From NCBI GenBank assembly GCA_017512905.1, contig JAFWEL010000060.1, positions 1-46,018 on the forward strand: DNA of 46,018 nt, read 5' to 3'. This document shows, piece by piece, positions 3,119-29,965 of the stretch. Position 1 is the first letter of the stretch. Each line of letters begins with the position of its first letter. The stretch is from Clostridia bacterium (lineage in GTDB: Bacteria > Bacillota > Clostridia > Christensenellales > Aristaeellaceae). Position numbers and translations under genes: made by a program. The notes beneath the pieces are model-generated. The model saw only the letters and a program-made list of their open reading frames with translations, did not search any database and was not told the DNA's origin.

Positions 3119-6100
3119 ATGAAAGATTATCGAAATAATACATTGGACCGCGAGCCGAAGGCCACCGGGCTGATGCGGCGCGGCGACAGGCCGGGAAGGA
3201 TAGACAGGCGCTTTGCCAGGCGGCTGTTCAGCCTGCTTTTGGTCATCAGCCTGCTTTCCAACACCCTTGGCTTTGTGGCGGACGACGTGATGCCGGTGCA
3301 GGGCCGGCGGGCGTCAGCGGAGATCCTGGAGCTTGATGACGGCATCGGCGCAATGGAGCCCAACGAGATTTCCGACAGCCTGACGCTGGACGATTCCCTG
3401 GGGGATCTGTCCGATGACGGCCTCGACCACATCGACGACCTCTCCCTGTCCCAGGGACTGGTGTCTAACGGCCAGGGGAGCGAGAATACCTATGTCTATC
3501 ATATGCAGGCGGAGACCCGTCTGCTGCTGAGCGACCTGGTAAAGAAGCTGAACCTGCCGGTGCGGGATATGCAGTTCGTCGAGAATGTCATCGTGATGCC
3601 CAACGAGCAGGACCCCACCCTTGACATGTCCCTTTTTGTGCAGATCGTCGCGCTGGAAAAGGACTTTCTGTTTTGCCTGAAGCCTCTGTTCAAGGATGTG
3701 CGGCTGACCGTTTATACCGTTGACGGCACGTTCATCCTCCGACTGGTCAACGACATGACCCTGAAGCCGGAGGACGTAACCCTCGCGGCCCAGACACTGG
3801 CAGAGAACCCCATCCCCTTCGACGCGGTTTTCAGCTACGACTTTGCGGGCAAGCCCGCCAGGATCCGCCTCAGCTGGCTGCTGGAGCAGGTGGGCCTACC
3901 GATCAAACTCAGGAGCATCACCGAGGTGGGCGTGGTGGAGCACGTCGGCCTGGAGGGCCAGGTCCTCACCATTGAAAGGGCGAAGAATGATTATGTGCTC
4001 ACGGTCCGCCACCCGTTCAATGAGATTGAACTGGCCGTGTTTACCGGTACCGCGTCCTACAGCATCGCGCTGCTCAATGGGGGGGCAAAGGAAGGCGGCG
4101 ATGATTCAGAAATGCCTGCCGACATGCCCACCGATATCGGTGCTTCCGGCGTGTCCGTGTCCGGTGATCCGGATCTCCCGGATGACGGGGCCCAGGATCT
4201 CTCAGGGCTGGAGCTACTGGATATGCCCGAGCTGGATCAGGGCGTGTTGATCGACTCTGAACCCGAAATTGAACAGGTGGAGGAGCCTGTGACCGAACCT
4301 GAAATCGAACAGGCAGAAGAACCTGTCGCCGAACCCGAAATCGAACAGGCAGAAGAACCTGCTGCCGAACCGGAAACCGAACAGGCCGAGGAGCCTGTGG
4401 CCGAACCCGAAATTGAACAGACTGAGGAACCTGTGGCGGAGCCGGAAATCGAGCAGGCCGAGGAGCCTGTGGCGGAGCCGGAAATCGAGCAGGCCGAGGA
4501 GCCTGTGACTGAACCCGAAATCGAGCAGGCCGAGGAGCCTGTGACTGAACCCGAAATCGAGCAGGCCGAGGAGCCTGTGACTGAACCCGAAATCGAGCAG
4601 GCCGAGGAGCCTGTGGCCGAACCTGAAATTGAACAGGCCGAGGAGCCTGTGACTGAACCCGAAATCGAGCAGGCCGAGGAGCCTGTGGCCGAACCTGAAA
4701 TTGAACAGGCGGAGGAGCCTGTGGCTGAACCGGAGATCGAGCAGACGGAAGAGCCTGTCGTTGAACCCGAGATCGATCAGGCCGAGGAGCCTGTGGCCGA
4801 ACCGGAGATCGAGCAGACGGAAGCGCCTGTCGTTGAACCCGAGATCGATCAGGCCGAGGAGCCTGTGGCTGAACCCGAAATTGAACAGACTGAGGAAGCT
4901 GTGGCGGAACCGGAAATCGAGCAGACGGAAGTGCCTGTGACGGAGCCAGAAATGGAGCAGACGGAGGCGCCTGTGACGGAGCCGGAGATCGAGCAGGCGG
5001 AAGTGCCTGTGACCGAGCCGGAAATCGAACAGGCAGAGGAACCTGTGGCGGAGCCGGAGATCGAGCAGGCGGAAGTGCCTGTGACCGAGCCGGAAATCGA
5101 ACAGGCTGAGGAACCTGTGGCGGAGCCGGAAATCGAGCAGGCGGAAGCACCTGTGGCCGAGCCGGAGGTCGAGCAGGCGGAAGCACCTGTGGCCGAGCCG
5201 GAGGTCGAGCAGGCGGAAGAACCTGAAGCTGAGCGTGAAGCCGGGCAGGCTTGGGAATCTGAAGCAGAGCCTGAAAACGAGCAGGTCGAGGAACCGGAAG
5301 CGGAACCCGAACCCACGGCGGACACCATGGCAGAGGACGCGGTGAGCGCGCCAGGAGACGCTCCGGAGAAAGCGCCTGTGGTCGAGACCGAGGACGTGAC
5401 GTCGGATGAACCGACGGTCGCCGTCGATGATTTGTCTGCTGAGGAAGCGCCCGTGGACGAGCCGCAGGCCGAAATGGACGAAGCTCCCGCCGTCGCCTGG
5501 CCCGCCGCTACCTTCACGGCCCGGACCTCGGGCGTCAACGTCTCCGTGACGGCGGACGAGGGCGCGTTCCCTGAAGGCACCACCATGGCGGTACGGCGCG
5601 TGTGGGATGCCGACACCCTGTCCGACATCCGCCAGAGCGTAGCAGACGACTTCGTGAAGGTTCGCCGTGTGCAGCTGGTGGACATCACCTTTTATGACGC
5701 CGCCGGCAATGAGATCGAGCCGCGCATCCCCGTTTCCGTGGTCATCTCGGTCAGCGAGATCGAAGAGGACCAGAATGCCGTGGTCGTCCACATGGACGAC
5801 GTAGGCCAGACCGAGGTCGTCGAGCAGACCGACGCTGAGAACGGGGACGGCAGGACAAGCCTGAGTGTCGAGATGCCCGCGGGTGATACGGAACCGGCTG
5901 GAGTCGGGAACAACCAAACCGAAGTCTCCTTTGAAGCTGATAGCTTCTCGCTGTACGCCGTGGTGGTCACCGAGACCATCTCCACCCATTACATAGACGC
6001 CTCCGGCAACACCTATAGCGTGGAGGTCAGCTACGGCCCCGAGGCGGGCATCCCCTCCGGCGCGAAGCTGGCGGTGTCCGAGCTGACCGGCGCGGCGGTC

Positions 6101-9100
6101 GACGAATACGCCGTCCGGGCCGCTGAGGCGCTGGATACGGACGCGGACAACCTGAACTATATCAAGGCGCTGGACATCGCCATAAAGAAGGATGGCGAGC
6201 CGGTGCAGCCCAAGGCCCCGGTGAACGTCTCCATCCGGCTGAAGGACGCACCGGAGACGATGGAAAAAGACAATATCAACGTGGTCCACTTCGGCGATGA
6301 GCCGGAGGTACTGGACTGCGCCCTGGACGGGGATACCGTCGGGTTTGAATCGGACGGGTTCTCGGTGTATGTGATTGCGGGCAGCGACGCCATCGCAAGA
6401 TGCACGTATACGTTCTGGGTTCCGAGTGAGGGTCATTATTCAGAGTATCCGGCCAGAGGCAGCGATGGTTCACCTGTTTACAGCCAGACCGTCAAGAGTA
6501 TCGACGAGTTGGTTGTTCCTCAGCTTGTTTCAACAGACACTAAAGAATTTGCTGGATGGTATGCGGGCAAAATCGTAGACGGCAATGTTATTTTAGAGGA
6601 TAATGCGTATAGTTTTGACACCGCTACCATTCCGCAAGGCGAGGACAGCGCAGTCTATCTCTATGCTGTGTTCAAGGAGTATGCCTATGTATATTTCCAC
6701 GGGCAGTATGACAGCAGCTTCAGGACCTTCCCCGTATCTTCCACGGTTAGGGAGGAGCTTGTGACCACAACGGAAGGCGAAACCACTTCAAAAACCGCTG
6801 AGGTGGACATCGGCGATGTGACCGCCTCTTATTCCAGCACGGATGATACAAATATGGACTTCTATGGGTGGTCCTATACGCCTGTGCAGACTCCGGGTGT
6901 TACAGAAGACTCGAATGGGAATTCGTACGTCATCCAAGAGGATCCCATAACGATCTCTGGCGAGACACATCTCTATCCAATCTATAAGGAAATCCACTGG
7001 CTGACCTATTATGCGGCTCAGTCAGGGCTCAGTGCGGCCTATGTGGCGCCCGCCAGCTTTTATGCCGGCGATCCTGTGGAATATGATGGCAGTTTTTCTC
7101 TTCCGACGACAGCCCGTGACGGCTATACCTTCCTGGGGTGGTGGACAGGAACTCTGAACTCCACAAAAGTTGGAAATGACACTGTGGAAACCGTTGACTA
7201 CGGAACCCAAATAACAGATGCCCACGGAATTCTTGTGAACAATGCGGATGTTGAAAGCAGTGTTTACATTTCCCAGGGGAAACTGTATCTGCGAAGAAAT
7301 GTCACATTATATGCCAAATGGCAGGCGACGTATAATATTGTATACTGGAAGCAGAAGACCACGGAGGATCCTTCTGCGGCGGATAAAACCTATGAGTATG
7401 CGCAGACGGTTTCCAGGACTGCAGACATAGGGAATATGGTTGCCGTTGAGGAAAACGACAGGGCGGAAGACAGATATGCCGGTTATACGTTTGGGCATTG
7501 TGACCCACCCGCGGTGATCGGCAACACAAAGGCGCTGACGGTTCTCAATGTGTATTATGACCTTAGCGGGGCGTACAGTCCGGCGGAAAGCGGCTCCTAC
7601 ACGTTGACATTTGCTGATTCTGTAACAGGCAGCGGCGCCAGCGAGATGCCGGCCGCCGTGACGGGTCTTTCCTATAGGGCTTCGCTGGCAGGAAGTGCTC
7701 CTGTGGACCCGATTTCGTCACGCACGTCAGAATCAGGAAGGGCGATCTACAGCTTTGACAGATGGTATGCGGATAAGGCGGCCACAATCCCGGTGTTCTT
7801 CACGGCTCCGACTACAGAGGAGACAGAGTCTCTTGATAAATATGTTGTGGTTGACACCATGCCCGACCATGACGTGACGGTTTACGCAGGATGGACGCCC
7901 ATCAAGTTCAGAGTCGACATCGACCCGAATTATGGCGCCCTGTATTACTATGACGATGAAGGCGTCCTTCAGGGCACGGGCGCGACCTACTTTAACAGCA
8001 CCTACGATGCCGAGCCCATCGGGGAGTACACACATGTTACCCGTGATTACGAGGAATCCACTTCCGGGGCATACTTCTATGTGAATCATGACAGAGCGTA
8101 TGGCGGTTCGGACCGCTTTACCTACTACACTACGAAGCAAAGCGAAGCCACAGAGGATACGACTTTCGAGTATTCTCCGGGGACGTATACCTATGCCGGA
8201 TGGTATGAGGTGTATTCGGATGGATCCGAAGCCTCTGAGCCCTATGACTTCAGCCAGCATACGGACCATGCCACGACCCTGAGACTTCACTGGAAGAAGA
8301 GCGGAGCTTATTATCTGAAATACAACGCCGTGGTTGATGATCTCACAGGGACGATGGATGATGCCGACGCAAGCGCGGAGCTGTTTGCGGACGGCGATTA
8401 CGCCGACTATGCCGAGATCACCCTGACCCATTCCGCCGTTGCGCCGACCGGTTACACCTTCATCGGCTGGAAGGTGCGGGGAAGCGACAGCACCACGATC
8501 TACACCCCGGGACAGAGCTTCACCCTCCATGCCGATGACGCGATCCGCACCAGCGGCAAGGAAGTGGTATTCCTGGATGCCGTCTATACGAGAGTTGATT
8601 CGGCCAGCATCACCTATGATGCAAACGGAGGAACTGTGAGCGGCAGCCCTGATTACGGCAGTTATCCGAGCAGAACCGGAGGAAAACCGGAAGCAGCTTC
8701 CGGAACCGTTGACACGAATGCCGGAACAGCCACCGTTTCCGGGCTTGAAAACAACTCGGAGTTTATCCTCAGCAGCGGCACGGGATTCGGCTATACTGCC
8801 GAAGGTGTGACTTATACCCTGGCAGGCTGGAGCAACCAAGCCGACTATGATCCGGACGATCCGGATGCTGAATTGTACACTGTGGGCGGCACCTATGGCG
8901 TGGATTCAGAAGAACCGACCACGCTGTATGCGGTATGGCAGACTAAGGTGACCTATCATTTGAACAATACGACTGCGACCTGGGGTGGAACAGGCGCGGA
9001 AGGCGCGTGGGAATCGCCGTACACTTCGGAAGTGGTGAGTTCGGAAACCGTCTACACCTTGAACGCCTATCTCGGGAATGTGGTAGATGAGCCGCCCTAC

Positions 9101-18100: not shown

Positions 18101-21100
18101 TGTTCGGCGAATGGCGGCTCCGGCGGCGGCGTGCGTGACAAGGGTGGGAAATTCTACATGTCCGGCGGAACGATCCGCGGCTGCAGCGCGGTCAATGGCG
18201 GCGGCGTGTACCTCCCCGGCAGCGCAAGCAATTGCATGTACATGTCCGGCGGCTCTATCATCAACAACAGCGCCACAAAAGTAGGCGGCGGCATTGCGTT
18301 CTATGATGTAAATTCTCGGCTTTACCTTTCCGGCAAGGTGAACGTCTCGGGGAACACGGCGACCAAGGATGGGCAATCCGTTGCCTGCAACGTAGAGCTG
18401 AATCATGACAGGCCGACCGTGAAGAGTGGCAGTACTTATAATTTGAACTCTATTATCAACACGAACAACGGCGGCCTGAAAGGCGGCTCCTACATCGGCG
18501 TATATGTGCCTGACGATGCGAACTGCTACGACAAGCACGGAAAGGAGAAGATGCCGTTTGGTACATTCGCAATCGGCGACAATACGACGAACCTCTACAG
18601 CTTCGTGAACGACCGCAATGGCCTGAAGGGCGGCATAATTGAAAACCCGAGCCCCAATACGATTTACTGGATCCAGATCTTCTCACTGACGGTAAGCAAG
18701 GAGGTGCTGTCAAGCGCGTCCAATCCGGCGGACACGGATGAGACATTCAGCTTCACCGTTCATATCAGGGGCAATGCCACGGCAACCGGCCAGCTGAATG
18801 CCGCGCAGATCGACAGCAGCACCGGCTATTATGGTGGGATGACCTTTGAAAGCAACGGAAGGGATACCACCACGGCAACCTTTACCCTGAAAGCGGGAGA
18901 ATCCATGACGGCGGTGAACCTGTCCCAGGGACTTGACTATGAGGTCATCGAGAACCTGACCGACGAGCAGAAGACAAAATACGCCACCCTGCCGGCAACT
19001 GTTTATACAGGCACGATCGGCGAAAACAGGGGCAGTACCGGGAAAGATCCCTACACGTCGGTGGTAAAATACATCAACGTGCTGCCGGTCTGCAAGATTA
19101 CAAAGCCGAACGGGAACCTCCTGTATGTGAAGTATACCGACAGCGAAAACGGTGCGGCAAAGACCTTCTATGTGCCGGCGGTCTATACGGAGCTGACAGG
19201 GAATGGCGGCGCGTTCAAGGCGCTGGAGAGCGAAACGTTCTACCAGTCGGATTCCGGGAGCACTACCTATGCGGTGAGCGGCGATGCGCAGATCAAGATG
19301 TTGATTGCCAGTTACACGCAGAGAGAAGCCATTGAACTTCCGGGCACGGTGACCGGTACCGTGACGCTGACCACGGCGGGCGCTTCCGACGCCCGGTTCC
19401 CGAAACAGGATTCGGGTACTGCTGCTACCATTGCCCGCGGCGGGTTTACAAACGCATCCATGTTCACTGCCGGTGGAAAACTTGTGCTGACCAACATCAT
19501 TCTGGACGGCGCGAAGGGAATTTATACATCAACCGCGAATGGCGGCATCGTGAGTGTTCCCTCCGGTGGCAGACTGACGGTACAGACCGACGCGGTTTTA
19601 CAAAACTCAACCACCAGCGGCAACGGCGGCGCGGTATATGTGAACAACGGCGGTGCCATGACACTGACAGGAGGAAAGATATGGAAGAATGAAGTGACGA
19701 GCAATGGTGACGGCGCAGGCATCTATCTCGCGCATGAATCAACATCCAGTCACGGAACGCTCTATATCTCCGGTGGTCCATCGTTCGGCAGGGTGATGAG
19801 CCAGGGTTCCTTCTCAAACGAGGGCAACTATAAACAGGAGGAGCTGACTGCAAAGGGAAATGGCGGTACTTATTATCCAAAACCTCGTCAGGATATCTAT
19901 ATCGCCGGATATCAGAGCGATTCTGACGATGATACCTCCGCCGCTTCTCTGGTAGTCAATGGAGAAATCAGCTCTGACAATGGGAGCATCTGGGTCTGGG
20001 CGGCAGAATCGCCGCACTACTGGTCGACCCGTCAGTTTGCGAAGATCGAGGAGGGAATGAGCATTTCAGTGGACACCCTGGTGAACTCCCTCAAAGCCTT
20101 CCGAAATGCGCGGGATGACAAAGCAGCCAAGAATGATACGGGAAGCTATCTATACGGAATAACGAAGGATGGAAGGAATGCATTGTGGAACGGCAAACCG
20201 GTTTGCAAGCTGACAGACAGTAACAATGTTCTGCTATACGAACGCGTGTCTGTGGGTTCCAGATATGTTTTCAGTCCGGCGGTCTATTCCACGGTCGCGG
20301 AAGGATTCAATGCTACAACCAATGCATTGTACTACAACTCCGGCAGGACGCCCTATCCCGGAGCGCTGAAGCTGAAGATGCTTCAGGATTACGAATTGGA
20401 CAGCGGTGAGGCGAATATCACTTACGACACTGCCCGTGACCTGACCTTCACGACGGCGGAGATAAGAAGCAATAACAGTGATGGATATTACTATTCGCCT
20501 GCCACGGGTGCGACCGGCGACAGCCTGACGAATGCTACCCTCACAAAGGCGCAGTCTACGGCTTCGATGTTCACGGTGAACACAACGTCCAACAGCTTCA
20601 CGGTGAAAGACCTGATCTTTGATGGCGGCACCAGTGTGATGACCACGGAAAACGTAAACGGCGGCGCGTTCAATATCACGAGTGTGACTTCGGCGTCATT
20701 CAGCGGCGTGACAATCAACAAGCTGAATACGACCGGCGACGGCGGCGCAATCTACCTGGCCAAGGGTACGCTGAACGTAACCGACAGCACCATAGAGGGC
20801 TGCTCGGCGGTCAACGGCGGCGGTATCTGCGCGGATGGCAATGCCACCACAGTCAACCTGCTGGGCACGACGGCCATCGAGGGCAACACTGCCACTGTCA
20901 ATGGTACTGATGTTTCCACCGGCAACGGCGGCGGCGTTCACGTAAAGAACAGCGCGACGCTGAACATCGGCGGAAGCACCCGCATATCGAACAACATTGC
21001 CCAGGGACACGGCGGCGGCGTCTATACAATTTTGGGTGACAATAAGCTGACCCTCAGTGATGACGCCACGATTTCCGGCAATGAGGCCCGGCACAAGGAA

Positions 21101-24100: not shown

Positions 24101-25585
24101 GGTGGAACGGATGTGAACGCCGAGAGCGCTATCCTGGGCGCGAGCGGTAACTTCGTGGAGAAAAAGGGTGCTGCGCCTTGGGTATACTCCACGACTGATG
24201 CTAACAAGCCAAAGAACGGCGATAAGGCCTACCCGGTTGACACCACTGCCCAGGCATATAAAGTTCGCCAGGATATCTTCGTGGCGGGGTATTCGGCAGA
24301 AGGCAGTGCCGCGAATTCCCTCGTCGTGACCGGCGCGATCAACTCGGAAGGACCTGGTTCCATCTGGGTATGGGCTGAGGCAGGGGAACACTATCGCGCA
24401 TCCCGGCAGTTTGCGGTGTTTGAGAGCGCTGAGGTCAAGTCTGGGCTCAGCACAACGGAATTACTCTCTACGATGGAAACCTTCCGCAACGCCCAAGCTG
24501 ATAAATCCACCGATTGTAGCGGCGAATTCCTGAGAGGCCAGGAGGGCGACGATATCAATGGATTGAAGTGCATCTACTGGTCCTCCAGTGGCTTTAATGT
24601 GGTGTTCCGCAAGATCGACGGCAACGGTAACCCGCTCCCCGGCGCGGCGTTCACACTTTATGAGGTTAACGCTGCAGGTACCGGCCCTGATACGACCAAG
24701 GCCGTGGGCGACCCTGTAGCCTCCGATAGCATCGCCGCTGAAACCCCCGCGACCTTCAATGTGAAGGTGACGGATAACAGCAAGACTCCGCCGGAGGACA
24801 AGCCTGATCCCCGGAAGGTCTATGGCGAAGGCTTGGTCGTGTTCGAGAAGGTTCCGCACGGAACGTACTTCCTGGTTGAGACCACTTTCCCGACAGGTGT
24901 GAAAAACGATGCCGAGGTGCAGTACAAGCTTGTAGTGGATCCCAAGGGCTGGTTCAACATCTATGCTGCCAGCGAAGATACCAACGGAAACACCGTGTAT
25001 ACCACCGAAGCGCCGACCACCAGCTTTGTGAAGGAGGCCACCGGAGACAAGTACTCGTTGCCGACGGGCGCGGTGAAGCCCACGGACACCACCCTGCCGG
25101 TCTATACGATATTGAACGAATCCCCGCTTAGCCGCAAAGTCATCCTGCGGAAGGTGGACGAGGATAATTATGCTTCACTGTCCGGTGCGCATTTCCACAT
25201 CCTCCGTGCCGACCTGTCGGAGTATACCGAGGGACAGCCGACGGGCAAGACCTGGTATGAATCCGGAGCATCTGCCGCGTTCTACATCGGCAAGCTGCCC
25301 TTCGGCACCTACTACCTGGTGGAGACGGTTGCACCGACAGCACCAGCTGGATACAACGAAAACACCGGGACAGGTCGCAACATTGGCAAGGTGTTCAAGC
25401 TGACGGTTGACAAGGATACGTCGACCTCCCCAGGAATATCCGTGGACAACACGAATTTGGTGCATCAGCTGACCTCAACCGGCACCGAGGACGTTATGAT
25501 CGCTGCCTTCAGGCGCTTCATGAACACGGGCAGCGAAACCGTGCCCGCCGGTGGGGGAGAGCCCCCCGCCGGGACGGGCGACTGA
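3119..25585 (+). CDS. Giant secreted modular adhesin with six beta-helix cassettes (7,488 aa)
   Basis: A basic N-terminus and hydrophobic core (about residues 38-56) ending in ASA (65-67) look like a long signal peptide. Order after that: two related small domains (about 124-319); 29 units of a 12-residue acidic EPEIEQAEEPVA repeat (381-728); two adhesin-type domains ending FSLYAV/FSVYVI (796-1091); Flg_new/InlB-like GYTFLGW...LYAKWQ repeats (1095-2041); an unassigned region; a Cna-B-like domain (2683-2815); six Pmp-like right-handed beta-helix cassettes rich in GGAIY and NN motifs (2820-7158), with a Cna-B-like insert at 5188-5323; two SpaA-like domains (7158-7461); and a Gly/Pro-rich tail. 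There is no LPXTG-like motif or final membrane segment, and no frameshift explains this. Start ATG 3119 has GGAGG six bases upstream. Probably a cell-surface or pilus-tip adhesin (inference). Confidence 0.9.
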   Translation: MKDYRNNTLDREPKATGLMRRGDRPGRIDRRFARRLFSLLLVISLLSNTLGFVADDVMPVQGRRASAEILELDDGIGAMEPNEISDSLTLDDSLGDLSDDGLDHIDDLSLSQGLVSNGQGSENTYVYHMQAETRLLLSDLVKKLNLPVRDMQFVENVIVMPNEQDPTLDMSLFVQIVALEKDFLFCLKPLFKDVRLTVYTVDGTFILRLVNDMTLKPEDVTLAAQTLAENPIPFDAVFSYDFAGKPARIRLSWLLEQVGLPIKLRSITEVGVVEHVGLEGQVLTIERAKNDYVLTVRHPFNEIELAVFTGTASYSIALLNGGAKEGGDDSEMPADMPTDIGASGVSVSGDPDLPDDGAQDLSGLELLDMPELDQGVLIDSEPEIEQVEEPVTEPEIEQAEEPVAEPEIEQAEEPAAEPETEQAEEPVAEPEIEQTEEPVAEPEIEQAEEPVAEPEIEQAEEPVTEPEIEQAEEPVTEPEIEQAEEPVTEPEIEQAEEPVAEPEIEQAEEPVTEPEIEQAEEPVAEPEIEQAEEPVAEPEIEQTEEPVVEPEIDQAEEPVAEPEIEQTEAPVVEPEIDQAEEPVAEPEIEQTEEAVAEPEIEQTEVPVTEPEMEQTEAPVTEPEIEQAEVPVTEPEIEQAEEPVAEPEIEQAEVPVTEPEIEQAEEPVAEPEIEQAEAPVAEPEVEQAEAPVAEPEVEQAEEPEAEREAGQAWESEAEPENEQVEEPEAEPEPTADTMAEDAVSAPGDAPEKAPVVETEDVTSDEPTVAVDDLSAEEAPVDEPQAEMDEAPAVAWPAATFTARTSGVNVSVTADEGAFPEGTTMAVRRVWDADTLSDIRQSVADDFVKVRRVQLVDITFYDAAGNEIEPRIPVSVVISVSEIEEDQNAVVVHMDDVGQTEVVEQTDAENGDGRTSLSVEMPAGDTEPAGVGNNQTEVSFEADSFSLYAVVVTETISTHYIDASGNTYSVEVSYGPEAGIPSGAKLAVSELTGAAVDEYAVRAAEALDTDADNLNYIKALDIAIKKDGEPVQPKAPVNVSIRLKDAPETMEKDNINVVHFGDEPEVLDCALDGDTVGFESDGFSVYVIAGSDAIARCTYTFWVPSEGHYSEYPARGSDGSPVYSQTVKSIDELVVPQLVSTDTKEFAGWYAGKIVDGNVILEDNAYSFDTATIPQGEDSAVYLYAVFKEYAYVYFHGQYDSSFRTFPVSSTVREELVTTTEGETTSKTAEVDIGDVTASYSSTDDTNMDFYGWSYTPVQTPGVTEDSNGNSYVIQEDPITISGETHLYPIYKEIHWLTYYAAQSGLSAAYVAPASFYAGDPVEYDGSFSLPTTARDGYTFLGWWTGTLNSTKVGNDTVETVDYGTQITDAHGILVNNADVESSVYISQGKLYLRRNVTLYAKWQATYNIVYWKQKTTEDPSAADKTYEYAQTVSRTADIGNMVAVEENDRAEDRYAGYTFGHCDPPAVIGNTKALTVLNVYYDLSGAYSPAESGSYTLTFADSVTGSGASEMPAAVTGLSYRASLAGSAPVDPISSRTSESGRAIYSFDRWYADKAATIPVFFTAPTTEETESLDKYVVVDTMPDHDVTVYAGWTPIKFRVDIDPNYGALYYYDDEGVLQGTGATYFNSTYDAEPIGEYTHVTRDYEESTSGAYFYVNHDRAYGGSDRFTYYTTKQSEATEDTTFEYSPGTYTYAGWYEVYSDGSEASEPYDFSQHTDHATTLRLHWKKSGAYYLKYNAVVDDLTGTMDDADASAELFADGDYADYAEITLTHSAVAPTGYTFIGWKVRGSDSTTIYTPGQSFTLHADDAIRTSGKEVVFLDAVYTRVDSASITYDANGGTVSGSPDYGSYPSRTGGKPEAASGTVDTNAGTATVSGLENNSEFILSSGTGFGYTAEGVTYTLAGWSNQADYDPDDPDAELYTVGGTYGVDSEEPTTLYAVWQTKVTYHLNNTTATWGGTGAEGAWESPYTSEVVSSETVYTLNAYLGNVVDEPPYIPKYTGTDNVLFKYWATKGTDGGTETYMQYDFTQAVTGAPDLYAYWSKPNTVTVHVVDASTATLSEVASGTGGWTIDPITVGMTSIALPGSGIVTAPSDYEIAFVAAHDSAEGVAAITEAEAVNAVVYDSAKKGIYVTYADGTSAALPDGAELYYVCYQKKALNIDYKSMAASGELSAVETTGAAYTTGALGTYDMQSQITGPLSLASGFSSYAFAIGSASAADASALSIMTDSSDSNDTLPALKLRNTWQGFQYSEDGSTWVSCGYDPTLYVIYFTQQPTTIILKEKTVGSSSIMDTGFIYNVTVTQTVANGSETTTTTLFDTTPESEGQSYHKDPYILINGEEQSAILFFSSAEDSTTTQTITITQTTDNHFDTEVSSEAGTETQPNEWTYTSDGSGGSQTVTFTNTHKALPVEVHVAMVSSNGLTIQDNLRSTKESNYSFALALGAQAVTLTTQLPSDGLYDQEKLDLEDYAFGAVVYGTSERTDGSPITLQGMGAVSIAYAQIEDNVYELVLKDSSGRTIGELGSNNLYYLYYPMPKIRYMKADADGNLTKITGSIVDSQTGSVVASDSITYDHEAVVINGQTVAYDQSIEIPLSGLTISQSGNNFRMPAVLDDGLLERYLGYTKLGAGSTDITTVGALADSTEDLTMYLRISDNALQFSIDNSTWQDLPMSVTPTIYAIYEERGYDLQISKTVDMSNSGTDSLFADKTFTVTISSTAITKSSYSVTGSDTDTITATPASGTTPGTIVLNDVMDGTRIRIKGLGPGDYTITETENDNYILSAKTGAITGTTTSTATVTDNSSLEISLTEGTKVDLTNTPKAICKIGDVKFYTLRSAIAYIETQGSTTSIVEMLTDYLMPSVDTVTIPSGYAVTFTTAEEGFEGAGTQAVITRSEDLADSILFTNQGTLAFTNMVLEGNSISSRKPMIQSAGDLTIGASAVVRNAINTGSGGVVSATAGNITVSSGTITRCSAANGGAIYNSGNGEITVSGTGKLQNNTATTGDGGAIYTAAGTITISGSAQISGNKAESGNGGAIFAGSAVIDISQSGSLTWNTAKKGGAIYAETGTITVSNTATTSSEVLKPSVSNNTASDGDGGAIWVGSGSITASGGTWTGNKAESGKGGAIYANGASVTVSEGTFGGSTDEANIAREGGAIYVNTGTVTVSGGTIEYNTASAGNGGAVYAGSGNVTVSGGSIANNSATASSGGAVYAGTGNVILSDEADLSDNTAKTNGGAVYAGGGSVTVSCESLNGNTATDGKGGAVYAESGAVAFTGVAVSGNTAGSDGGAMYAGSGTMSVTGGSMTDNTSEAGNGGALCAGSGSIALDGVRFGGVDAGNEATSGSGGAVYAGSGIVSLTNTVTMTYNTAGTNGGALYVGSGSASLASTTSMANNSAVNGAAVFVDSGRATFTGGTYTTNTASEGGAVGMGSTDARLYFSGDVNISGNTLSDDTTKSNIYLDQDSKDVLIMEGLGGSASLGIYVPDSMTSKRDVPGARFATYTNDSNVTTKISNDRRGFSVQKDEDAKQLFWGAKIKVEVRYQKSFAENIPPASIEGTGDTDYQVKKAAFDYFPEFDSAAISELADEIKNTYSLGLSSTAVYAIGFAGDAAQYSDYVTNLDWDDASETWELKKRDGNTEALNGRTILIYYAEPAYISIENNASSALEISSLTVGNTTVGQLGVINTTTNAGYGAVYAKNGSVRSALLPVTEDDLNLGVNAAITILLPGGQGMTYHLDGAFGSSVSGTVRLRRGSSSPLPEETLTVTSGSFAPLTGSTPGSSATYKIIFGNDRYVCKVVDSAGGEHRYTTISGAINDVKNGTISLTTAKTATIQMLVDYLLPSSDAVVVPAGYDITFTTATEGTYTYKPVDADEPRATISRDTDNTNAMISTTSGSAATALTIKDLVFNVKGVQGSTEYGAVVAKGSSVTVDNVDFTDLYANNGGAIFAETTSGATNSWVKVKDSYFYNCHSIRGGSRDGGGAIHAYVDKLKVEGCEFDSCEGNWQAGAVFHRVEFTNNYTESLITKCTFTNCRSKAAGGMELGSRNIIVKGCTFEHCYATSRNGGGFNVYIMTTATGGGAPTFDCWTRVEDCTFNDCGLTAAGGSNDGNGGGFRSSSKYTTVVNTTFTNCTSLKNGGAVALSNGNAVKAELIGVTISGCSAVNGGAVHSVGKQLVISDSYDVDANGNPIFADGTAKAPGGANLSSGVKAGTHRVGDMKVENCTAATVGGIYHDKDDNSAKLTIANATITGNTSTTSTDVKSSGGGVQTKARTVSITGSNISNNTTKGVGGGLNAYKCTNLNISDTTISNNTAASNGGGVWLDADSDTNRNNQVLTIKGSAIDGNTSGGSGGGIYTLAKTVTIGASETRTDSSSGKPIRSSVSHNTAKTNGGGVYQSRNVDGSKLEISDVSIDGNGANGGAGGGVYAGVRTLTATSAEISRNTATSDGGGVYFYIKDNGDLMDLTVEGCTMDTNISGGNGGGVYTIAKTVEIKAHTEGTGEEAVTTNTTISDCTTAKNGGGIYQNRDAEGSVLTISDAVISGNTANGTGSELGGGGVYANVWNMTLTASEVSGNTAAKHGGGIYKNSANNDRYLKVDNSRVKNNTAGNQGGGIYCRSQLYLRNNSEVSDNHLTSSTVDNAAGVFLENNRTLYVGPEFTDATAAAAFTDSSSIKENHTAAGTDSNLRLWWASSQNAAASVYVYCHLNGNIGVTNAAKVGTQFGTSFIANPDGFQDDAAVFQADTSTLHGIIDRTDTAGVKIIWAGPPIAKITGKDADGNDILLYMKDNGTGPAIFDKLNAGNNSNYGTSSAFGILNTASPTLYTKDGELYEGKTYSIKMLVENYTSETYLIANYYEGRELIFTTAGAGDTDGYPFEGSTGGRATVTRGAGTGNNSFLNANCNLTLTNIVIDGGSQNGITAQSKTRNLYINNANAKVTLGEGAILQNATVKEGDGGGVYINTGSFEINGGVIRNCATITKGDGGGVYLNSGTFTLKAGTIYQCSANGGSGGGVRDKGGKFYMSGGTIRGCSAVNGGGVYLPGSASNCMYMSGGSIINNSATKVGGGIAFYDVNSRLYLSGKVNVSGNTATKDGQSVACNVELNHDRPTVKSGSTYNLNSIINTNNGGLKGGSYIGVYVPDDANCYDKHGKEKMPFGTFAIGDNTTNLYSFVNDRNGLKGGIIENPSPNTIYWIQIFSLTVSKEVLSSASNPADTDETFSFTVHIRGNATATGQLNAAQIDSSTGYYGGMTFESNGRDTTTATFTLKAGESMTAVNLSQGLDYEVIENLTDEQKTKYATLPATVYTGTIGENRGSTGKDPYTSVVKYINVLPVCKITKPNGNLLYVKYTDSENGAAKTFYVPAVYTELTGNGGAFKALESETFYQSDSGSTTYAVSGDAQIKMLIASYTQREAIELPGTVTGTVTLTTAGASDARFPKQDSGTAATIARGGFTNASMFTAGGKLVLTNIILDGAKGIYTSTANGGIVSVPSGGRLTVQTDAVLQNSTTSGNGGAVYVNNGGAMTLTGGKIWKNEVTSNGDGAGIYLAHESTSSHGTLYISGGPSFGRVMSQGSFSNEGNYKQEELTAKGNGGTYYPKPRQDIYIAGYQSDSDDDTSAASLVVNGEISSDNGSIWVWAAESPHYWSTRQFAKIEEGMSISVDTLVNSLKAFRNARDDKAAKNDTGSYLYGITKDGRNALWNGKPVCKLTDSNNVLLYERVSVGSRYVFSPAVYSTVAEGFNATTNALYYNSGRTPYPGALKLKMLQDYELDSGEANITYDTARDLTFTTAEIRSNNSDGYYYSPATGATGDSLTNATLTKAQSTASMFTVNTTSNSFTVKDLIFDGGTSVMTTENVNGGAFNITSVTSASFSGVTINKLNTTGDGGAIYLAKGTLNVTDSTIEGCSAVNGGGICADGNATTVNLLGTTAIEGNTATVNGTDVSTGNGGGVHVKNSATLNIGGSTRISNNIAQGHGGGVYTILGDNKLTLSDDATISGNEARHKEGGGGIYLCDATLDMTGGTISNNVAGTVTRDEDGSITDTTITTGGGGGVRLANQGVTFTMSGGTISGNSAANGGAVYVDTGASLIMSGGKVGSSDSANTATNGAGVYLKGSGVLTGGTISHNSATGKGGGAYVASGSSITMSETAAITDNSVGSVENGGGVYIAGEKTTDGNGNESAVSGIIHVQGGVKITGNTAGSSASNLRISGDTSLVVDGNLTANAAIGICTEKEEDIDQIGVETAVRENLDVITYDRNASIYAIPFGTKKVVWKFEPVCKLTDDSDKLLFKNEDLEPAVYMTLADGFEAAAGALYNKNGGAYSDSSTVKLKMLMDYTVPEQVNNRSNRPIIFTTAENNKNASTLDKDAGDIFIYSGMNASKATVTRGFDNVGSMVQSYGILTVQNLKLNGGNQYNPSKERDAAEGQTESHQYGGILNIQSGTLNISADAELVNGKARAGGAIYAADSSIVNISAGSITGNSATNGGAVYMASGMLNVNGSASITNNEVTGTNSHGGAIFLSGTAQAKISAGTISGNKAVASGGAVYAESQSAVSVSGGEITNNQATGNTSHGGAIAASGTGESNHAQVNVSGGTITGNTAVIGGGAVYLESYATFELSGTATLSNNKTTGTQSYGGAIFATANSTVTVSGGTIRGSTTLTEPCARYGGAIYLESYSRLNMSSGQIMGCNAGSDGGAMYVTDYATVEMTGGSILNCTASNYGGAIYNASTTVPNNGSTISLTNATIDGHNELSSETANARSGGGICMAVGTLALGESSRIEDCTASLYGGAIYNQSETVPNNGSTVSLTNATIDGHNSLSAGTLNANSGGGIYMQKGTLSVGSDSRIEDCTASIYGGAIYNQSENVPNNGSTVSLTNATIDGHNDLLAGTSNANSGGGVYMEKGTLSVGSDSRIEDCTASLYGGAVYDSSAGKAAEGTNPAICGFTMTGGTITGNTASNYGGAVYVAANATAEMTGGEIVGNTANTNGAGIYLAENSKLKLKDNPSFGGTDVNAESAILGASGNFVEKKGAAPWVYSTTDANKPKNGDKAYPVDTTAQAYKVRQDIFVAGYSAEGSAANSLVVTGAINSEGPGSIWVWAEAGEHYRASRQFAVFESAEVKSGLSTTELLSTMETFRNAQADKSTDCSGEFLRGQEGDDINGLKCIYWSSSGFNVVFRKIDGNGNPLPGAAFTLYEVNAAGTGPDTTKAVGDPVASDSIAAETPATFNVKVTDNSKTPPEDKPDPRKVYGEGLVVFEKVPHGTYFLVETTFPTGVKNDAEVQYKLVVDPKGWFNIYAASEDTNGNTVYTTEAPTTSFVKEATGDKYSLPTGAVKPTDTTLPVYTILNESPLSRKVILRKVDEDNYASLSGAHFHILRADLSEYTEGQPTGKTWYESGASAAFYIGKLPFGTYYLVETVAPTAPAGYNENTGTGRNIGKVFKLTVDKDTSTSPGISVDNTNLVHQLTSTGTEDVMIAAFRRFMNTGSETVPAGGGEPPAGTGD
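4259..5302 (+). repeat. 36-bp coding tandem repeat (12-residue acidic repeat, about 29 units)
   Basis: Inside the giant gene, 27 well-kept and 2 worn units encode EPEIEQAEEPVA with substitutions mainly at the A/T, E/A/V and A/T/V positions. Many units are nearly identical at the DNA level, so slippage or recombination could change the number of units. The negatively charged Pro-Glu spacer would form an extended stalk between the N-terminal domains and the first adhesin-type domains. Confidence 0.95.
23222..23824 (+). repeat. 201-bp near-identical coding tandem repeat (3 units)
   Basis: The word at 23222, 23423, 23624 and 23825 (GATTGCACCGCTTCG or a close variant) recurs at an exact 201-bp spacing. 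Each unit encodes 67 residues with a GGAIYN rung, a PNNGST turn and a GGGIYM rung of the sixth beta-helix. Units 2 and 3 are almost the same base for base, unlike the other rungs, which implies recent duplication. Confidence 0.9.
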
Positions 25586-25640
25586 GAAGAACCCAATACC
25601 TGACCGACTCCAACCAATCAACAACCGGAGGTGATGGCGC

Positions 25641-26462
25641 ATGAACGCCATGAAAAACAAGATAAAATCCCACAGGGGTGCGTCCATCACCTTCGCGTTG
25701 CTGTTGTTTCTGGTGTGCGCCATTATCAGCAGTATCGTGATTGTGGCGGCGACGGCGGTCGGCGGTCGCGCAAGCAAGATGGCGGAATTGGACCAGCGTT
25801 ATTATGCCGTCAATTCCGCGGCGGAGCTGTTGCGGGATGTGCTGGAACAACAGACAGTAGTCGTGACGGCTGGAACCAAGACGGTTACTACTGTAGACCA
25901 GGATGAAAACCCTGTGCAGAAGAAGGATAGCGACAACAAGCCTATGCAGGATACAGATGGTAAGCCGATTTATGATCAATCGGAGGAAGCATTAGACAAG
26001 GTTGTCACTGTGAATGATGAAGAGACGACAGACACAGAATCGCTCATCACCGCGGCCGCTTTGTTGTTCAGTGGTACAGAGGAAAAAACGCTGGGATCAC
26101 TATCGTTGAAGGCTACTCTGTCTGGAGCGGCTAAAGAAGCAGATTCATTAAGTGTGACGATAACTCCAACCCCTGATAAGACGAATCGAAAGCTATATAT
26201 AACAGTCTCAAACACAATCCATGACAAAGGTACATATACCCTTGGACTTACCTTCAAAGCAGATATTGTCAAGAATGAAAACGAGCGTACCTCATACAGC
26301 GCACCGAAGCCGACGACGGAGGATGGAAGAATTGTTGAAGGTAAATACACACGTGTAAAAACCGTGTATAAGACCAAAGTTTCGACGATCCGATGGAAAT
26401 TGATCGACATGCAAACTGTGGTTGCCACTGCACCGTCTTCTACGGCATCAACTGGAGGATGA
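25641..26462 (+). CDS. Prepilin-like protein lacking Glu5 (PilX/GspK/ComGG-like)
   Basis: The 273-residue product begins with a basic stretch, then RG followed by ASITFALLLF and a hydrophobic helix of about 22 residues. This resembles a class III (type IV) prepilin with cleavage after the Gly. Position +5 is Phe, not the usual Glu; GspK-type tip pseudopilins and ComGG also lack Glu5. The rest is a hydrophilic domain with an acidic Asp/Lys-rich insert (about residues 88-115) and beta-rich C-terminal half. ATG 25641 is preceded by GGAGGTG at good spacing. It lies 55 bp after the giant gene and 5 bp before the next gene, so it is very likely co-transcribed. Function as a tip-complex subunit is inferred from the N-terminus and context only. 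Confidence 0.75.
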   Translation: MNAMKNKIKSHRGASITFALLLFLVCAIISSIVIVAATAVGGRASKMAELDQRYYAVNSAAELLRDVLEQQTVVVTAGTKTVTTVDQDENPVQKKDSDNKPMQDTDGKPIYDQSEEALDKVVTVNDEETTDTESLITAAALLFSGTEEKTLGSLSLKATLSGAAKEADSLSVTITPTPDKTNRKLYITVSNTIHDKGTYTLGLTFKADIVKNENERTSYSAPKPTTEDGRIVEGKYTRVKTVYKTKVSTIRWKLIDMQTVVATAPSSTASTGG

Positions 26463-26467
26463 GATCC

Positions 26468-26863
26468 ATGAGAAACAGAATATTTAAAAAGTTATCTTCT
26501 CAGATGGGCGAATCCATCGGCGAAACGCTGGTGGCATTGCTGATTTCTGCCTTGGCGCTTGTTATGTTGGCTGGTGCCGTTTCTTCAGGTATGCGCATCG
26601 TTACCAACAGCAAGGAAAAGATGGAAGTGTATTACAAGGTCAACAATGCCGTTGTCGCCCGAGCGACTACTGCACCGACAGTTAACGGAACGGCAGCGCC
26701 CGGTTTTATGGGAATGTTGACCGTAAAAATTAATAATCTGCTGCCATCCGGGACAATTCCTCCAGCGACCTACTGGAAGAATGAAACACTCGGTGCTGTG
26801 CCGGTCGTGGCTTATTCGATACCAACGCCAACGCCAGTTCCAGTTCCAACAACCGCTCCTTGA
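26468..26863 (+). CDS. Short prepilin-like protein with Pro/Thr-rich tail
   Basis: The 131-residue product has a basic leader, then MG followed by ESIGETLVALLISALALVML. Counting from the residue after Gly, Glu is at +5 as in true pilins and pseudopilins. The body is short, and the protein ends in a TPTPVPVPTTAP tail. The ATG at 26468 was preferred over upstream in-frame codons because it has GGAGG nine bases before it and gives a normal prepilin leader. The gene starts 5 bp after the preceding one. It resembles small minor pseudopilins of the GspI/PilV type in size and position; the family match is inferred. Confidence 0.75.
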   Translation: MRNRIFKKLSSQMGESIGETLVALLISALALVMLAGAVSSGMRIVTNSKEKMEVYYKVNNAVVARATTAPTVNGTAAPGFMGMLTVKINNLLPSGTIPPATYWKNETLGAVPVVAYSIPTPTPVPVPTTAP

Positions 26864-26902
26864 ATCTGAGGGGAAAACATAACAGACTCGGAGGCTTGCA
26901 CC

Positions 26903-27460
26903 ATGTTGATCAAGAAAAAGCTGAAAGCTAAATCCGGCTTTACACTGGCAGAAACGCTGCTGGCAGTGTTGATATTGTTGCTTGTCTCGGTTATTGTGGC
27001 CAACGGCATTCCTGTCGCTCGAAATGTATACAACAATGTCATCGTTGGGGCGAATGCGCAAATGCTGCTGTCCACGGCGGTGACGGCGCTGAGAAACGAG
27101 CTGGGAACGGCACAGGAAATCTCTTATACTGGAACCGATATCATCTATTACAAATCCAGCATCGGGGCGTATTCCAAGCTGAGCGTGGATGCATCAACAG
27201 GTATACAATTATTGGATTATGTGAAAAAGGAAGATGGGACTGCGATCCCGGTGTCGGGCAAGACGGGGACTCGCACATCGCACAATCTGGTGAGTTATGC
27301 CGCAGCCAACAAAAACCTGATTGTCACCTACGATGGCGTAAGTATAGACAATGATGTCATAACGGTCTCAAACCTTGAAGTGAAACAGGAGAAAGGGACT
27401 AAGTCTACTATAGTAAAGTTGGACAACCTGAATATCCGAGTTGTGCCCATAGCAGGTTAA
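26903..27460 (+). CDS. Prepilin-type N-terminal methylation domain protein (GspJ/PilW-like)
   Basis: The 185-residue product has a classic prepilin leader: lysine-rich MLIKKKLKAKSG, then FTLAETLLAVLILLL with Glu at +5. After the transmembrane helix comes a small globular domain with short beta strands, including a DIIYYKS motif common in PulG/GspJ-like proteins. GGAGG at 26890-26894 supports the ATG at 26903. It is separated by 39 bp from the gene before and 18 bp from the next. A minor pilin or pseudopilin exported and assembled by a type IV pilus-like machine is the likely role; the machine's core genes are not in this window. Confidence 0.8.
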   Translation: MLIKKKLKAKSGFTLAETLLAVLILLLVSVIVANGIPVARNVYNNVIVGANAQMLLSTAVTALRNELGTAQEISYTGTDIIYYKSSIGAYSKLSVDASTGIQLLDYVKKEDGTAIPVSGKTGTRTSHNLVSYAAANKNLIVTYDGVSIDNDVITVSNLEVKQEKGTKSTIVKLDNLNIRVVPIAG

Positions 27461-27478
27461 AAGTATAGGACGGTGAGC

Positions 27479-29965
27479 ATGATGAAAAGACAAAACAGAA
27501 AACGCGGCTTTACCATGGCTGAAATGCTGATCGTGGTGGCCATTATCGGCGTACTTGGTGCGGTGGCCTTCGTTGCCGTGAATCAACATCAGCGGTCTTT
27601 GGAAAGGCTCGAAAGGGATTCGGTTGCCCGCGAAATCTTCATAGCAGCGCAAAACCACCTGACCATGGCAGAGAGCCAAGGTTATTTGGGTGTGACTGGT
27701 GATAAGACTGATGATAATATTTTTGGCACGCAAGTAGATTCAACAAAGGGAACTTATTATTTTGCCGTCAACAAGGGAAGCGGATTTAGCTCAACCGGCG
27801 CACCCAAAAGCCTGCTTGACCTCATGCTGCCCTTTGGCTCGATAGACGAAACTGTGCGGGGAGGCGGCAGTTATATTATTCATTATCAGCCCAAAAAAGA
27901 ACCGACTGTAACAGATAACAAAATAATGCCTTCCGGAACTGTGATTGACGTGTTTTATTGTTCCACGGATGATCGGTATGGGGATGATTTAAGTGGTACA
28001 GATGTGGAGGGTTTGAACAGTCTGATAAGTAAATATGCCGGAGACGATAAAGCAGGAGATCGAAAGAACTACGGCAGCGCCGTTCTTGGTTGGTATGGCG
28101 GCGACGCGCTGGAGCCGATAACAACAAATGTACTCACTGATCCTTTGCTTTATGTTGAAAACGGCAATAAGCTCCGAGTCGGTGTAGTTGACAATAATAC
28201 CGGCGATTCTTTGCAGATCATCATTAAAGGCGTTACGTCCGGAGCGGAAAAAGTCATCGAGCTCAGGAAATCGACTGAAGCTTCCTTTACGCCGGATGGA
28301 ACACGAATAGACAGCGACAATAATGTCAATGAGCAAACCTGCAGCTATGTGATAATTCTGGATGATATAACCACTAAGGATCTGCATTTTGCGGATTTGG
28401 TGGCTGATAGTGGTAACTTCATTCCTGGCGAAGATATTACAATACAGGCCAAGGTTTTCGACAACACCAGGATTTCCAACATCGCCTACAGCGCAGAGGT
28501 TACGGTCAACAGTCTATTTGAAAAGGTTGAAGCAGGCGATAGGGACAATGCCGGTAATATACCTGTGACGGCTTATATCAATAATATTCGCCATTTGGAG
28601 AACCTCGACAAGCGTGTTTCCAATGTAACTGTTACGCGGGAAGCGGGTGTAGCGCCTAACAAGACTACCTATACCCTCAATAGCGCGAAGCAGACTTCGG
28701 ATATAAGTTGGAAGGTTTTCAAAGAAGACATCAATGGGAAAGATAATGCCGATACCACTGTAATCTATGAACACAAACCCAGTACAGATGATACTGCGAT
28801 AACAACCGCTGGCAATTATTTACCCGTCCGGACGGCAATCGGCACTGGCAGCAGTTATCTTACATCGTATGACGGGCAATATCATAGTATATCCGATATT
28901 AAGGTTGATTATGCAGGAAACGCGGGTCTGTTTGAATCAATCACAGGTGTTAGTGCCACACAAGCCGCGATTACCAATCTTGCTTTGATTGATTTTGATG
29001 TCTCGAACAGTGGTTCAGGCAATATCAATGCCGGTGCGCTGGCAGGTACATTGACATATGTCGATGTGACCAACGTCATTGCTTACAACAGCAAAGCAAC
29101 GATAACGGCAGGAATCGTCGCAGCCAGCGGCAATGCGGGCGGTCTGATCGGCTATGCCAACGCCTGCAATGTCACCAAGAGTGCGGCGTCGCTCTATGTC
29201 ACAGCCACCGCGGGCAATGCTGGCGGCCTGATCGGTGAAACCAACGACGGCAAGGTTTCCGGCTGCTATTCCGGCGGACACACCAACAAGGGAACCTACT
29301 ACAAGGACGACGGTACGGAAATATACAATGTGCAGGCGGCGGCGAAGAACGCGGGCGGCCTGGTCGGTGTTGCAAGCGGGACGCCCATTGATTACAGCTA
29401 TGCTACCTGCTCTGTCACGGGCGAAACCGCGGGCGGGTTTGTGGCCAGCGCATCGGCGACGATTTCCGATTGCTATGCCGTTGGTATGGTGAAGGGCACC
29501 GGGACCACCGGTACGGGCACGGCGGCTGTCAATAAAGAGGGCGCCTTTGCCTACGGCTCGACGACTATATCAAACTGCCGCTACTTGGAGATCATGAATG
29601 AACGGCCTGACAACGAACAATATCCATATCTCCCGGCGTTAGGCGACAAGCCTACGGATACCACCAGCGTGAAGATGATCGATGAGAATGCGGAAACGTA
29701 CAACACATTTTGCGGCGCAGCAAAAGACGAGGACGGCAATGACTTGTGGAAACCTGCCAGCCCCTACGATGCCAAGCTGATTGAATACTATGGCGGCAGG
29801 TTCAACCTCCAAACTGTAGCCCAGCTTGATACGGGCTCTAAAGTTGGCGTGAAGGAAGTGGCGACCACCGTGGGCAACGTCACCACCCCCGCCGACTTCG
29901 TCGCCACCCACTACGGCGACTGGCCTGCGCCGGAGATCTTTGTGGTCAATACGCAAACCAACTGA
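27479..29965 (+). CDS. Oversized prepilin-like protein with GLUG-type repeats (828 aa)
   Basis: The N-terminus is a canonical prepilin: basic leader, RG, then FTMAEMLIVVAIIGVLG with Glu at +5 and a helix resembling major pilins. The remaining roughly 790 residues are far longer than a usual pilin (about 150-200 residues). The middle part has beta-rich, adhesin-like segments. Residues about 540-690 carry GLUG-like repeats with GNAGGLIG, NAGGLVG and ETAGGFVA, expected to fold as a beta-solenoid. The start is ambiguous among GTG 27473, ATG 27479 and ATG 27482; ATG 27479 was chosen with AGGA eight bases upstream. It is the last of the four pilin-like genes, 36 bp before a YjcQ-type gene. It probably carries a binding domain on a pilus-like fibre (inference). 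Confidence 0.8.
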   Translation: MMKRQNRKRGFTMAEMLIVVAIIGVLGAVAFVAVNQHQRSLERLERDSVAREIFIAAQNHLTMAESQGYLGVTGDKTDDNIFGTQVDSTKGTYYFAVNKGSGFSSTGAPKSLLDLMLPFGSIDETVRGGGSYIIHYQPKKEPTVTDNKIMPSGTVIDVFYCSTDDRYGDDLSGTDVEGLNSLISKYAGDDKAGDRKNYGSAVLGWYGGDALEPITTNVLTDPLLYVENGNKLRVGVVDNNTGDSLQIIIKGVTSGAEKVIELRKSTEASFTPDGTRIDSDNNVNEQTCSYVIILDDITTKDLHFADLVADSGNFIPGEDITIQAKVFDNTRISNIAYSAEVTVNSLFEKVEAGDRDNAGNIPVTAYINNIRHLENLDKRVSNVTVTREAGVAPNKTTYTLNSAKQTSDISWKVFKEDINGKDNADTTVIYEHKPSTDDTAITTAGNYLPVRTAIGTGSSYLTSYDGQYHSISDIKVDYAGNAGLFESITGVSATQAAITNLALIDFDVSNSGSGNINAGALAGTLTYVDVTNVIAYNSKATITAGIVAASGNAGGLIGYANACNVTKSAASLYVTATAGNAGGLIGETNDGKVSGCYSGGHTNKGTYYKDDGTEIYNVQAAAKNAGGLVGVASGTPIDYSYATCSVTGETAGGFVASASATISDCYAVGMVKGTGTTGTGTAAVNKEGAFAYGSTTISNCRYLEIMNERPDNEQYPYLPALGDKPTDTTSVKMIDENAETYNTFCGAAKDEDGNDLWKPASPYDAKLIEYYGGRFNLQTVAQLDTGSKVGVKEVATTVGNVTTPADFVATHYGDWPAPEIFVVNTQTN

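Follow-up and report, generated by a model that had tools for sequence, protein, structure and literature searches.

We describe a locus that we read as encoding the tip of a monoderm type IV pilus, in which a giant protein would act as the tip effector on a complex of four minor pilins; we give this reading a probability of roughly 0.7. The window, by which we mean the whole 46,018-nucleotide stretch of DNA that was analysed, is one entire contig (G000:C91) of a draft genome from a rumen-type bacterium, and it carries the gene for the giant followed by four prepilin-like genes, g1 to g4, which we refer to as the tetrad (Table 1). An initial annotation of this DNA had proposed that the giant is held at the cell surface or at a fibre tip by the pilin-like proteins rather than by sortase. 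Gene order and its conservation, the co-occurrence of giant and tetrad, the fusion of giant and g4 in one genome and the missing anchor all speak for this proposal, while the physical attachment itself is what we infer from them. Of the two outcomes named beforehand as refuting it, neither was seen within the searches made. The fusion, a terminal domain common to the giants and the retention of giants elsewhere in tetrad-bearing genomes go beyond what had been claimed.

Table 1. Features of the giant–tetrad locus, in window coordinates
Feature	Position	Strand	Basis
Giant (7,488 aa), candidate tip effector that is not a pilin	3119..25585	+	ORF; homologous giants beside or with the tetrad
Giant, N-terminal export-signal-like region	3119..3319	+	Hydropathy; hydrophobic residues 36-54
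Giant, Glu/Pro-rich tandem repeats	4259..5302	+	Repeat counts, off-diagonal matches, positions
Giant, region of GG(A/G/V)-type repeats, probable beta-helix	12035..23983	+	59 motif occurrences; Chlam_PMP 17.1 bits, below cut-off
Giant, DUF7601 domain	18683..19036	+	Pfam PF24547, E 5.9e-13
Giant, penultimate SpaA/CnaB-like domain region	24593..25132	+	Two Pfam SpaA stretches; predicted model
Giant, terminal SpaA/CnaB module, free C-terminus	25133..25582	+	Common to giants
g1, prepilin-like, without Glu5, K/PilX-like position	25641..26462	+	ORF, Glu5 count, predicted model
g2, prepilin-like minor pilin	26468..26863	+	ORF, conservation in mates
g3, prepilin-like minor pilin	26903..27460	+	ORF, N_methyl 18 bits (below cut-off)
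g4, 828-aa modular pilin	27479..29965	+	N_methyl 29.5 bits, PDB pilin chains, alignment of 15
g4, conserved C-terminal end	29909..29962	+	Alignment of g4 relatives

A giant protein without a sortase anchor

The giant ORF opens with an ATG preceded by GGAGG, and the most hydrophobic stretch is the one at residues 36-54. The protein is apparently exported, as judged from the hydropathy of this signal-like start; the export asserted by the initial annotation thus stands as far as hydropathy can carry it. The beta-helix of the same annotation is better called probable, because the label depends on the GG(A/G/V)-type repeats, 59 of them across residues 2973-6948, together with a Chlam_PMP match that falls below the cut-off. 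Apart from that match, the Pfam scan recovered two SpaA stretches and DUF7601, and most of the length is left without an assignment; neither a wall-binding domain nor the PilY1 domain (PF05567) appears in the Pfam listing of the window giant at E up to 0.01. A search of genomes for the PilY1 domain returned 0 of 60, with the positive control likewise undetected in the same search.

Motif and hydropathy scans found neither an LPXTG motif nearby nor a hydrophobic stretch at the C-terminus, and the sole LPTTA lies 6,161 residues ahead of it, in agreement with the earlier description of a 7,488-residue protein that has no sortase motif or membrane anchor. Sortases are nevertheless available, with four matches in the source genome and matches in all 27 genomes sampled from the same genus (genus mates), so that the absence of LPXTG is not explained by a lack of sortase; the argument that another anchor is needed because sortase is absent was accordingly rejected.

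A second contig of the same draft, C87, is 100% identical to window positions 19-30976 over 30,958 bp and ends inside an SH3 repeat gene. It is either an assembly duplicate or an exact duplication, and given its identity over that length we left it uncounted as a second cassette.

Four prepilin-like genes

As originally described, the four small genes follow the giant directly, with intervals of 55 bp between the giant and g1, then 5, 39 and 18 bp between successive members of the tetrad. The accompanying claim of type IV prepilin N-termini fared unevenly across the set; g4 exceeds the Pfam N_methyl cut-off, g3 matches below it, and g1 and g2 have no N_methyl match. A profile of 15 g4 proteins matches PDB pilin chains across the N-terminal 35-80 positions. 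The Gly-1 of g1-g4 and the Glu5 of g2-g4 were set by our search patterns and are not evidence, but the Glu5 position of g1 was left free; in the pattern-caught set (53 g4 and 64 g1 sequences, with 29 g4 and 11 g1 matches lacking the motif dropped), Glu5 is absent from g1 in 64 of 64, residue 5 being F, M, Y, V or L. The predicted model of g1 (pLDDT 88.9) has a long helix at 14-70 plus a sheet, and fold searches with this model gave no clear pilin match.

The g4 protein carries a pilin N-terminus and an effector module in one chain, as modular pilins do, and its relatives range up to 2,110-3,752 aa. Those of L069 (7811-14143) and L072 (4354-10695), each about 2,110 aa with g4 regions repeated, are unusually large type IV pilins.

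The pilus machine in the source genome and the genus

The source genome is a 3.53-Mb draft of 209 contigs, 92% complete, in which PilB, PilT and a PilC homologue lie together on a 5.7-kb contig (C74). PilM is represented by one match below the cut-off, and neither a major-pilin-like match nor a prepilin peptidase domain was found in this draft. Motor, platform and peptidase genes had been predicted to lie elsewhere in the genome. That describes PilB, PilT and PilC here, and fails for 14 genus mates, in which pilB comes directly after g4; the peptidase, not found in the source draft, is present in 24 of the 27 mates. The simplest reason for its absence is an assembly gap, because C74 ends about 165 bp past X166, the gene that pilD follows in mates; a real loss is possible. 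We rejected the inverse argument, that a genome with no peptidase has no pilus, on the same grounds: the genome is a draft, and C74 breaks off just beyond X166, at the place where pilD and pilM lie in mates.

X166 itself (L003 166-870, G000:C74), of about 230 aa, lies between pilC and pilD in the genus and is a conserved pilus-operon gene. Between X166 and pilD, G020 encodes a 991-aa protein (L055 7075-10050) with a VWA-like match of 25.7 bits against a cut-off of 27, possibly a further effector.

Among the genus mates, g4 is present beyond its N-terminus in 22 of 27, that is, in 22 of the 24 with a peptidase and none of the 3 without. G008 and G018, which give only weak N-terminal g4 matches, have the machine and no cassette, and a pilus can therefore exist without the cassette. 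The fullest loci of the genus run giant-g1-g2-g3-g4-pilB-pilT-pilC-X-pilD-pilM-pilN-pilO-major pilin; G014:C36 spans the series through to the major pilin, a gap of about 0.9 kb with a short ORF lying between its giant and g1, and G019:C4 and G002:C10 extend from giant to pilO. The order in G012 is giant-g4-g1, and the cassette is separate from the machine in G000, G009, G010 and G006. Genus giants measure 5,847-9,143 aa where they are uncut by a contig end, some of their starts being uncertain. Pfam was run on ten pilus-locus proteins, eight of them from the G019 operon, and named T2SSE twice, T2SSF, A24 and PilM_2, as well as N_methyl for the major pilin of G026; T2SSM reached 26.8 bits (cut-off 27.8), and the proteins at the PilN position and X166 had no Pfam match. 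Given an operon shared with the machine in mates, we discarded the view of the locus as a lone giant with stray pilin-like genes.

In G006:C21 (L065 2203-4300), genes that look recombinase-like by eye replace the giant, of which a short C-terminal remnant stays.

Tetrads and giants beyond the genus

An early hint that the cassette is confined to the genus (0 of 8 family mates and one weak match in 24 order mates) was overturned by a scan of a genome collection with the g4 alignment, which yielded 143 relatives and 79 loci that were kept. Eighteen of these match contigs of the sampled genus mates, and some of the other 61, here called outside loci, may belong to the genus; the titles describe 78 of the 79 as MAGs or uncultured bacteria. 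All four genes are present in 56 of the 61 outside loci and 15 of the 18 genus loci. A giant ORF adjoins the tetrad in 33 of the 61 outside loci, upstream in 17 and downstream in 16, and in 28 of the 42 that have at least 3 kb on both sides; as a background, 7 of 522 other genes in the genus regions reach 900 aa. Length and position were the criteria for calling the 16 downstream giants, of which nine were read to the end and seven run off the available stretch. Among the names that depositors gave these loci are Lachnospiraceae, Oscillospiraceae, Erysipelotrichaceae, Coriobacteriaceae and Denitrobacterium, and Oribacterium sp. NK2B42, which is not labelled a MAG, has the cassette. The expectation that this gene order would recur in other genomes is thus borne out, the tetrad adjoining giant ORFs not only in genus mates but also where the depositors' label is Erysipelotrichaceae or Coriobacteriaceae.

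Fourteen outside genomes with both flanks visible have no adjoining giant, and in 11 of them a search with the terminal module described below located a giant elsewhere, on the tetrad's contig in 3 and on other contigs in 8. These 11 are large or contig-cut ORFs that end in the module (60-117 bits, 0-32 aa before the stop) and have no LPXTG. In G176 and G181, which have the tetrad, only anchored SpaA proteins (20-34 bits) were seen among the ends read, and in G061, which has a tetrad with a g4 of 3,237 aa, the whole-genome search for the terminal module gave nothing. On the g4 tree, the upstream or downstream position of the giant needs two changes across the 42 rows labelled up or down, and 17 changes are needed with all labels.

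The giants of L188 and L190, labelled Coriobacteriaceae, carry Leu-Tyr-Gly-Cys after the signal-like stretch, which is near a lipobox, and on this motif may be lipoproteins. Similar frames of 540-580 aa stand beside the cassette in L100, L112, L121 and L174, with a C-terminal EFKR-type motif and an ATPase- or nuclease-like appearance by eye; they are possibly mobile.

A common terminal module that co-occurs with g4

Of 37 giants read to the end, 36 finish in a SpaA/CnaB domain (about the last 150 aa) that lies 0-28 aa from the C-terminus; in the 37th, the Coriobacteriaceae giant of L188, the module ends 151 aa before the C-terminus. A hydrophobic tail or LPXTG-plus-anchor end was found in 0 of the 37, with a control LPXTG protein detected. 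The giant of G012 is not among the 37, and its end was viewed separately. The terminal HMM was built from an alignment (A3) that took in 30 of 34 C-terminal pieces; the four excluded, L098 and the genes downstream in L106, L107 and L114, are not giants. An independent test of the module is therefore possible only with giants that are not in A3, and among these it closes 7 of the 8 downstream giants and 11 of the 11 strong matches of the outside-genome search. A further alignment, A5, used 25 of those pieces. AlphaFold2 modelled the last 330 aa of the window giant with a mean pLDDT of 81.5, the final 80 or so residues scoring 41-69, and Foldseek matched this end to domains of the CnaB type from sortase pilins, BcpA and SpaD among them (E in the 1e-5 range, overall TM low).

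Across 60 relatives, module matches of at least 60 bits occur in 18 of 23 genomes with g4, the source genome included, and in 0 of 37 without, where the best matches are 42-48 bits. The association gives a Fisher value of 3.6e-11, and within the genus (18 of 23 versus 0 of 5) a P of 0.0026, both of which ignore kinship. The match of G006 counted among the 18 is the remnant, and five g4-bearing mates (G003, G004, G011, G017 and G022) have no strong match to the terminal module. G001, G007 and G026 have no giant beside the tetrad, and in each a separate contig carries the module at a free end.

A natural fusion of g4 and giant

In L138 (MAG SIG462), g4 and the giant form one uninterrupted ORF of 2,853 aa. 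Residues 1 to about 706 match g4 and those from about 713 match giants, the switch to giant lying some 20 residues or less from the conserved GDWPAPE block; there is no second export signal at the junction, and the protein ends in the terminal SpaA domain. Between the giant part and the window giant, the alignment covers 1,369 columns at 34% (E 7.6e-164). Searched against 14 other genomes, the portion up to about residue 706 found its g4 counterpart in all 14, and in 10 of them the giant portion had a match past the end of g4 on the contig that carries it. Fusion of proteins that are elsewhere separate neighbours is a classic sign of acting together. The L138 protein also shows that the N-terminal side of a giant can join g4 while the terminal module stays free. 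The fusion comes from one MAG contig in a single assembly, and no second case was found in 99 genomes around L138, among at most three scored places per genome. Three other lineages have g4-like frames of 1,383, 2,149 and 3,752 aa, followed by g1-g3 and adjoining pilus machine genes.

A proposed tip complex and its known counterparts

Excerpts of the literature describe several comparable tips. Clusters of M. xanthus encode PilY1, with a type I signal peptide, and four minor pilins, the five forming a complex for priming and for the tip in which PilX has no Glu5, like GspK (PMC7541494). For S. sanguinis, minor pilins are described as forming a tip complex in which modular pilins are the effectors, and the excerpted text states that monoderms lack PilC/PilY1, a tip adhesin of very large size that is not a pilin (PMC9934059). 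Carrier and effector modules have been described, the most extreme multi-domain case given in the excerpt being a protein of 860 residues (PMC8179133); Gram-positive type IV pili were surveyed in 2011 (PMC3244431), and a review of monoderms is available (PMC6916266). Among the matches listed from open-licence PMC papers, no title or abstract start describes a giant-plus-tetrad locus.

By analogy, the giant is most likely a tip effector that is not itself a pilin and that stands in functionally for PilY1 while having no PilY1 domain. Like the sets of PilY1 with FimU-PilV-PilW-PilX in Myxococcus xanthus and Pseudomonas, the locus combines four minor pilins, one of them without Glu5, with an adjoining gene for a non-pilin whose start resembles an ordinary export signal, and like PilY1 the giants combine a variable region with a common C-terminal module (PMC7541494 and PMC8179133, in part). 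The window giant differs in having no PilY1 Pfam domain and in ending in SpaA/CnaB rather than a beta-propeller, and the giants, at 3,083-9,143 aa (some start codons being uncertain), occur in monoderm-labelled groups, for which excerpts state that PilC/PilY1 is absent (PMC9934059). The PilA-PilB-PilC system of S. sanguinis is also a monoderm pilus in which large modular pilins act at the tip (PMC9934059 and PMC8179133, in part), and g4 is a modular pilin; there, however, the effector is part of the pilin, whereas here a second, separate giant is present, fused to g4 in one genome, and g4 relatives of 2,110-3,752 aa exceed the 860-residue extreme of that excerpt. GspH-I-J-K are likewise four small pilins that serve as a priming tip set, with a K that has no Glu5 (PMC7541494, in part), but in mates the tetrad shares its locus with a major pilin and a PilT-like ATPase, and no outer membrane is expected. 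The C-terminal domains of the giants match the CnaB fold of sortase pili and LPXTG proteins, yet 37 of 37 giants have no LPXTG-plus-anchor end despite the sortases in the genome.

From these comparisons we infer pilus assembly, a tip position for the giant, docking by its terminal module, and adhesion. In the mechanism that we propose, g1-g4 would assemble into a complex of four minor pilins, comparable to HIJK/FimU-PilV-PilW-PilX, which primes the filament and forms its cap, with g1 filling the Glu5-less K/PilX position and g4 itself being a large modular pilin. The giant would leave the cell by Sec through its own N-terminal signal and would dock on the tetrad at the filament tip, in place of sortase anchoring, so as to turn its long repeat region towards a surface, a food particle or another cell. 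With the fibre extended by PilB and retracted by PilT, the giant would probably be the sticky tip of a retractable pilus. The terminal SpaA/CnaB module would be the best candidate for joining the giant to the pilins, its role being either pilin docking or target binding.

A bolder version would have the giant joined covalently to the pilus without sortase, the terminal CnaB taking a missing strand from a pilin in a natural SpyCatcher-like manner. Loose patterns detect in the terminal CnaB of giants a Lys in 29 of 30 and a Glu in 29 of 30, which from CnaB chemistry we take to be the bond formers, and a last strand with Asn in 8 of 30; for the penultimate CnaB domain the corresponding counts are 27, 25 and 25 of 30. 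The first candidate donor is the short C-terminal strand of g4, which by a loose pattern bears Asn in 53 of 53 examined. We regard covalent joining as unlikely, because the same Pro/Asn spacing also begins an inner domain of g4 (P222/N228); the g4 of L143 counts against it too, keeping the Asn strand in a genome where the only SpaA protein found is anchored.

Alternative interpretations

One may postulate instead that the pilin-like set operates as a pseudopilus and drives the giant, as a secreted substrate rather than a pilus component, out across the wall. An excerpt likening PilY1 to type II secretion substrates (PMC7541494) lends this scenario some weight, as do the export-signal-like start and free C-terminus of the giant. 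We nonetheless consider it unlikely; the operon of mates pairs a PilT-like ATPase with a separate major pilin, as in true pili, and fusion to g4, as in L138, would be needless for a substrate that is to be released. Monoderms, moreover, have no outer membrane to cross.

It is similarly improbable that the giant acts on its own as an adhesin of the surface or matrix and merely shares an operon and regulation with the pilus. The genomes do hold sortases and other SpaA-type proteins, and the giant does not adjoin the tetrad in the 11 outside genomes discussed above; yet giants away from the tetrad still co-occur with it, strong module matches number 0 of 37 in relatives without g4, and the giants have no anchor of their own and in L138 are represented by a fusion. 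A non-covalent wall-binding region within the giant could also hold it on the wall, and the long stretches without a Pfam assignment leave room for one, but this is very unlikely, as the Pfam listing of the window giant contains no wall-binding domain at E up to 0.01 and such a region would give no reason for the tetrad. Assembly accident or chance we dismiss: nearly all loci are MAG or uncultured by title and C87 duplicates the window, but this order recurs in tens of separate assemblies as well as in Oribacterium sp. NK2B42, and such repetition already refutes it.

Returning to the giant as tip effector on a four-minor-pilin complex, a giant without a PilY1 domain seems to fill the tip place in many gut and rumen bacteria labelled as families of Firmicutes and Actinobacteria. 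If true, the design in which a four-pilin tip carries an exchangeable non-pilin effector has more than one origin, and the locus names candidate adhesins for rumen bacteria. The natural pilin-giant fusion and the defined terminal module provide handles for testing tip loading.

After the cassette, the window encodes on the minus strand (31320-33893) a response regulator with GGDEF, EAL and PAS domains; c-di-GMP signalling often controls pili.
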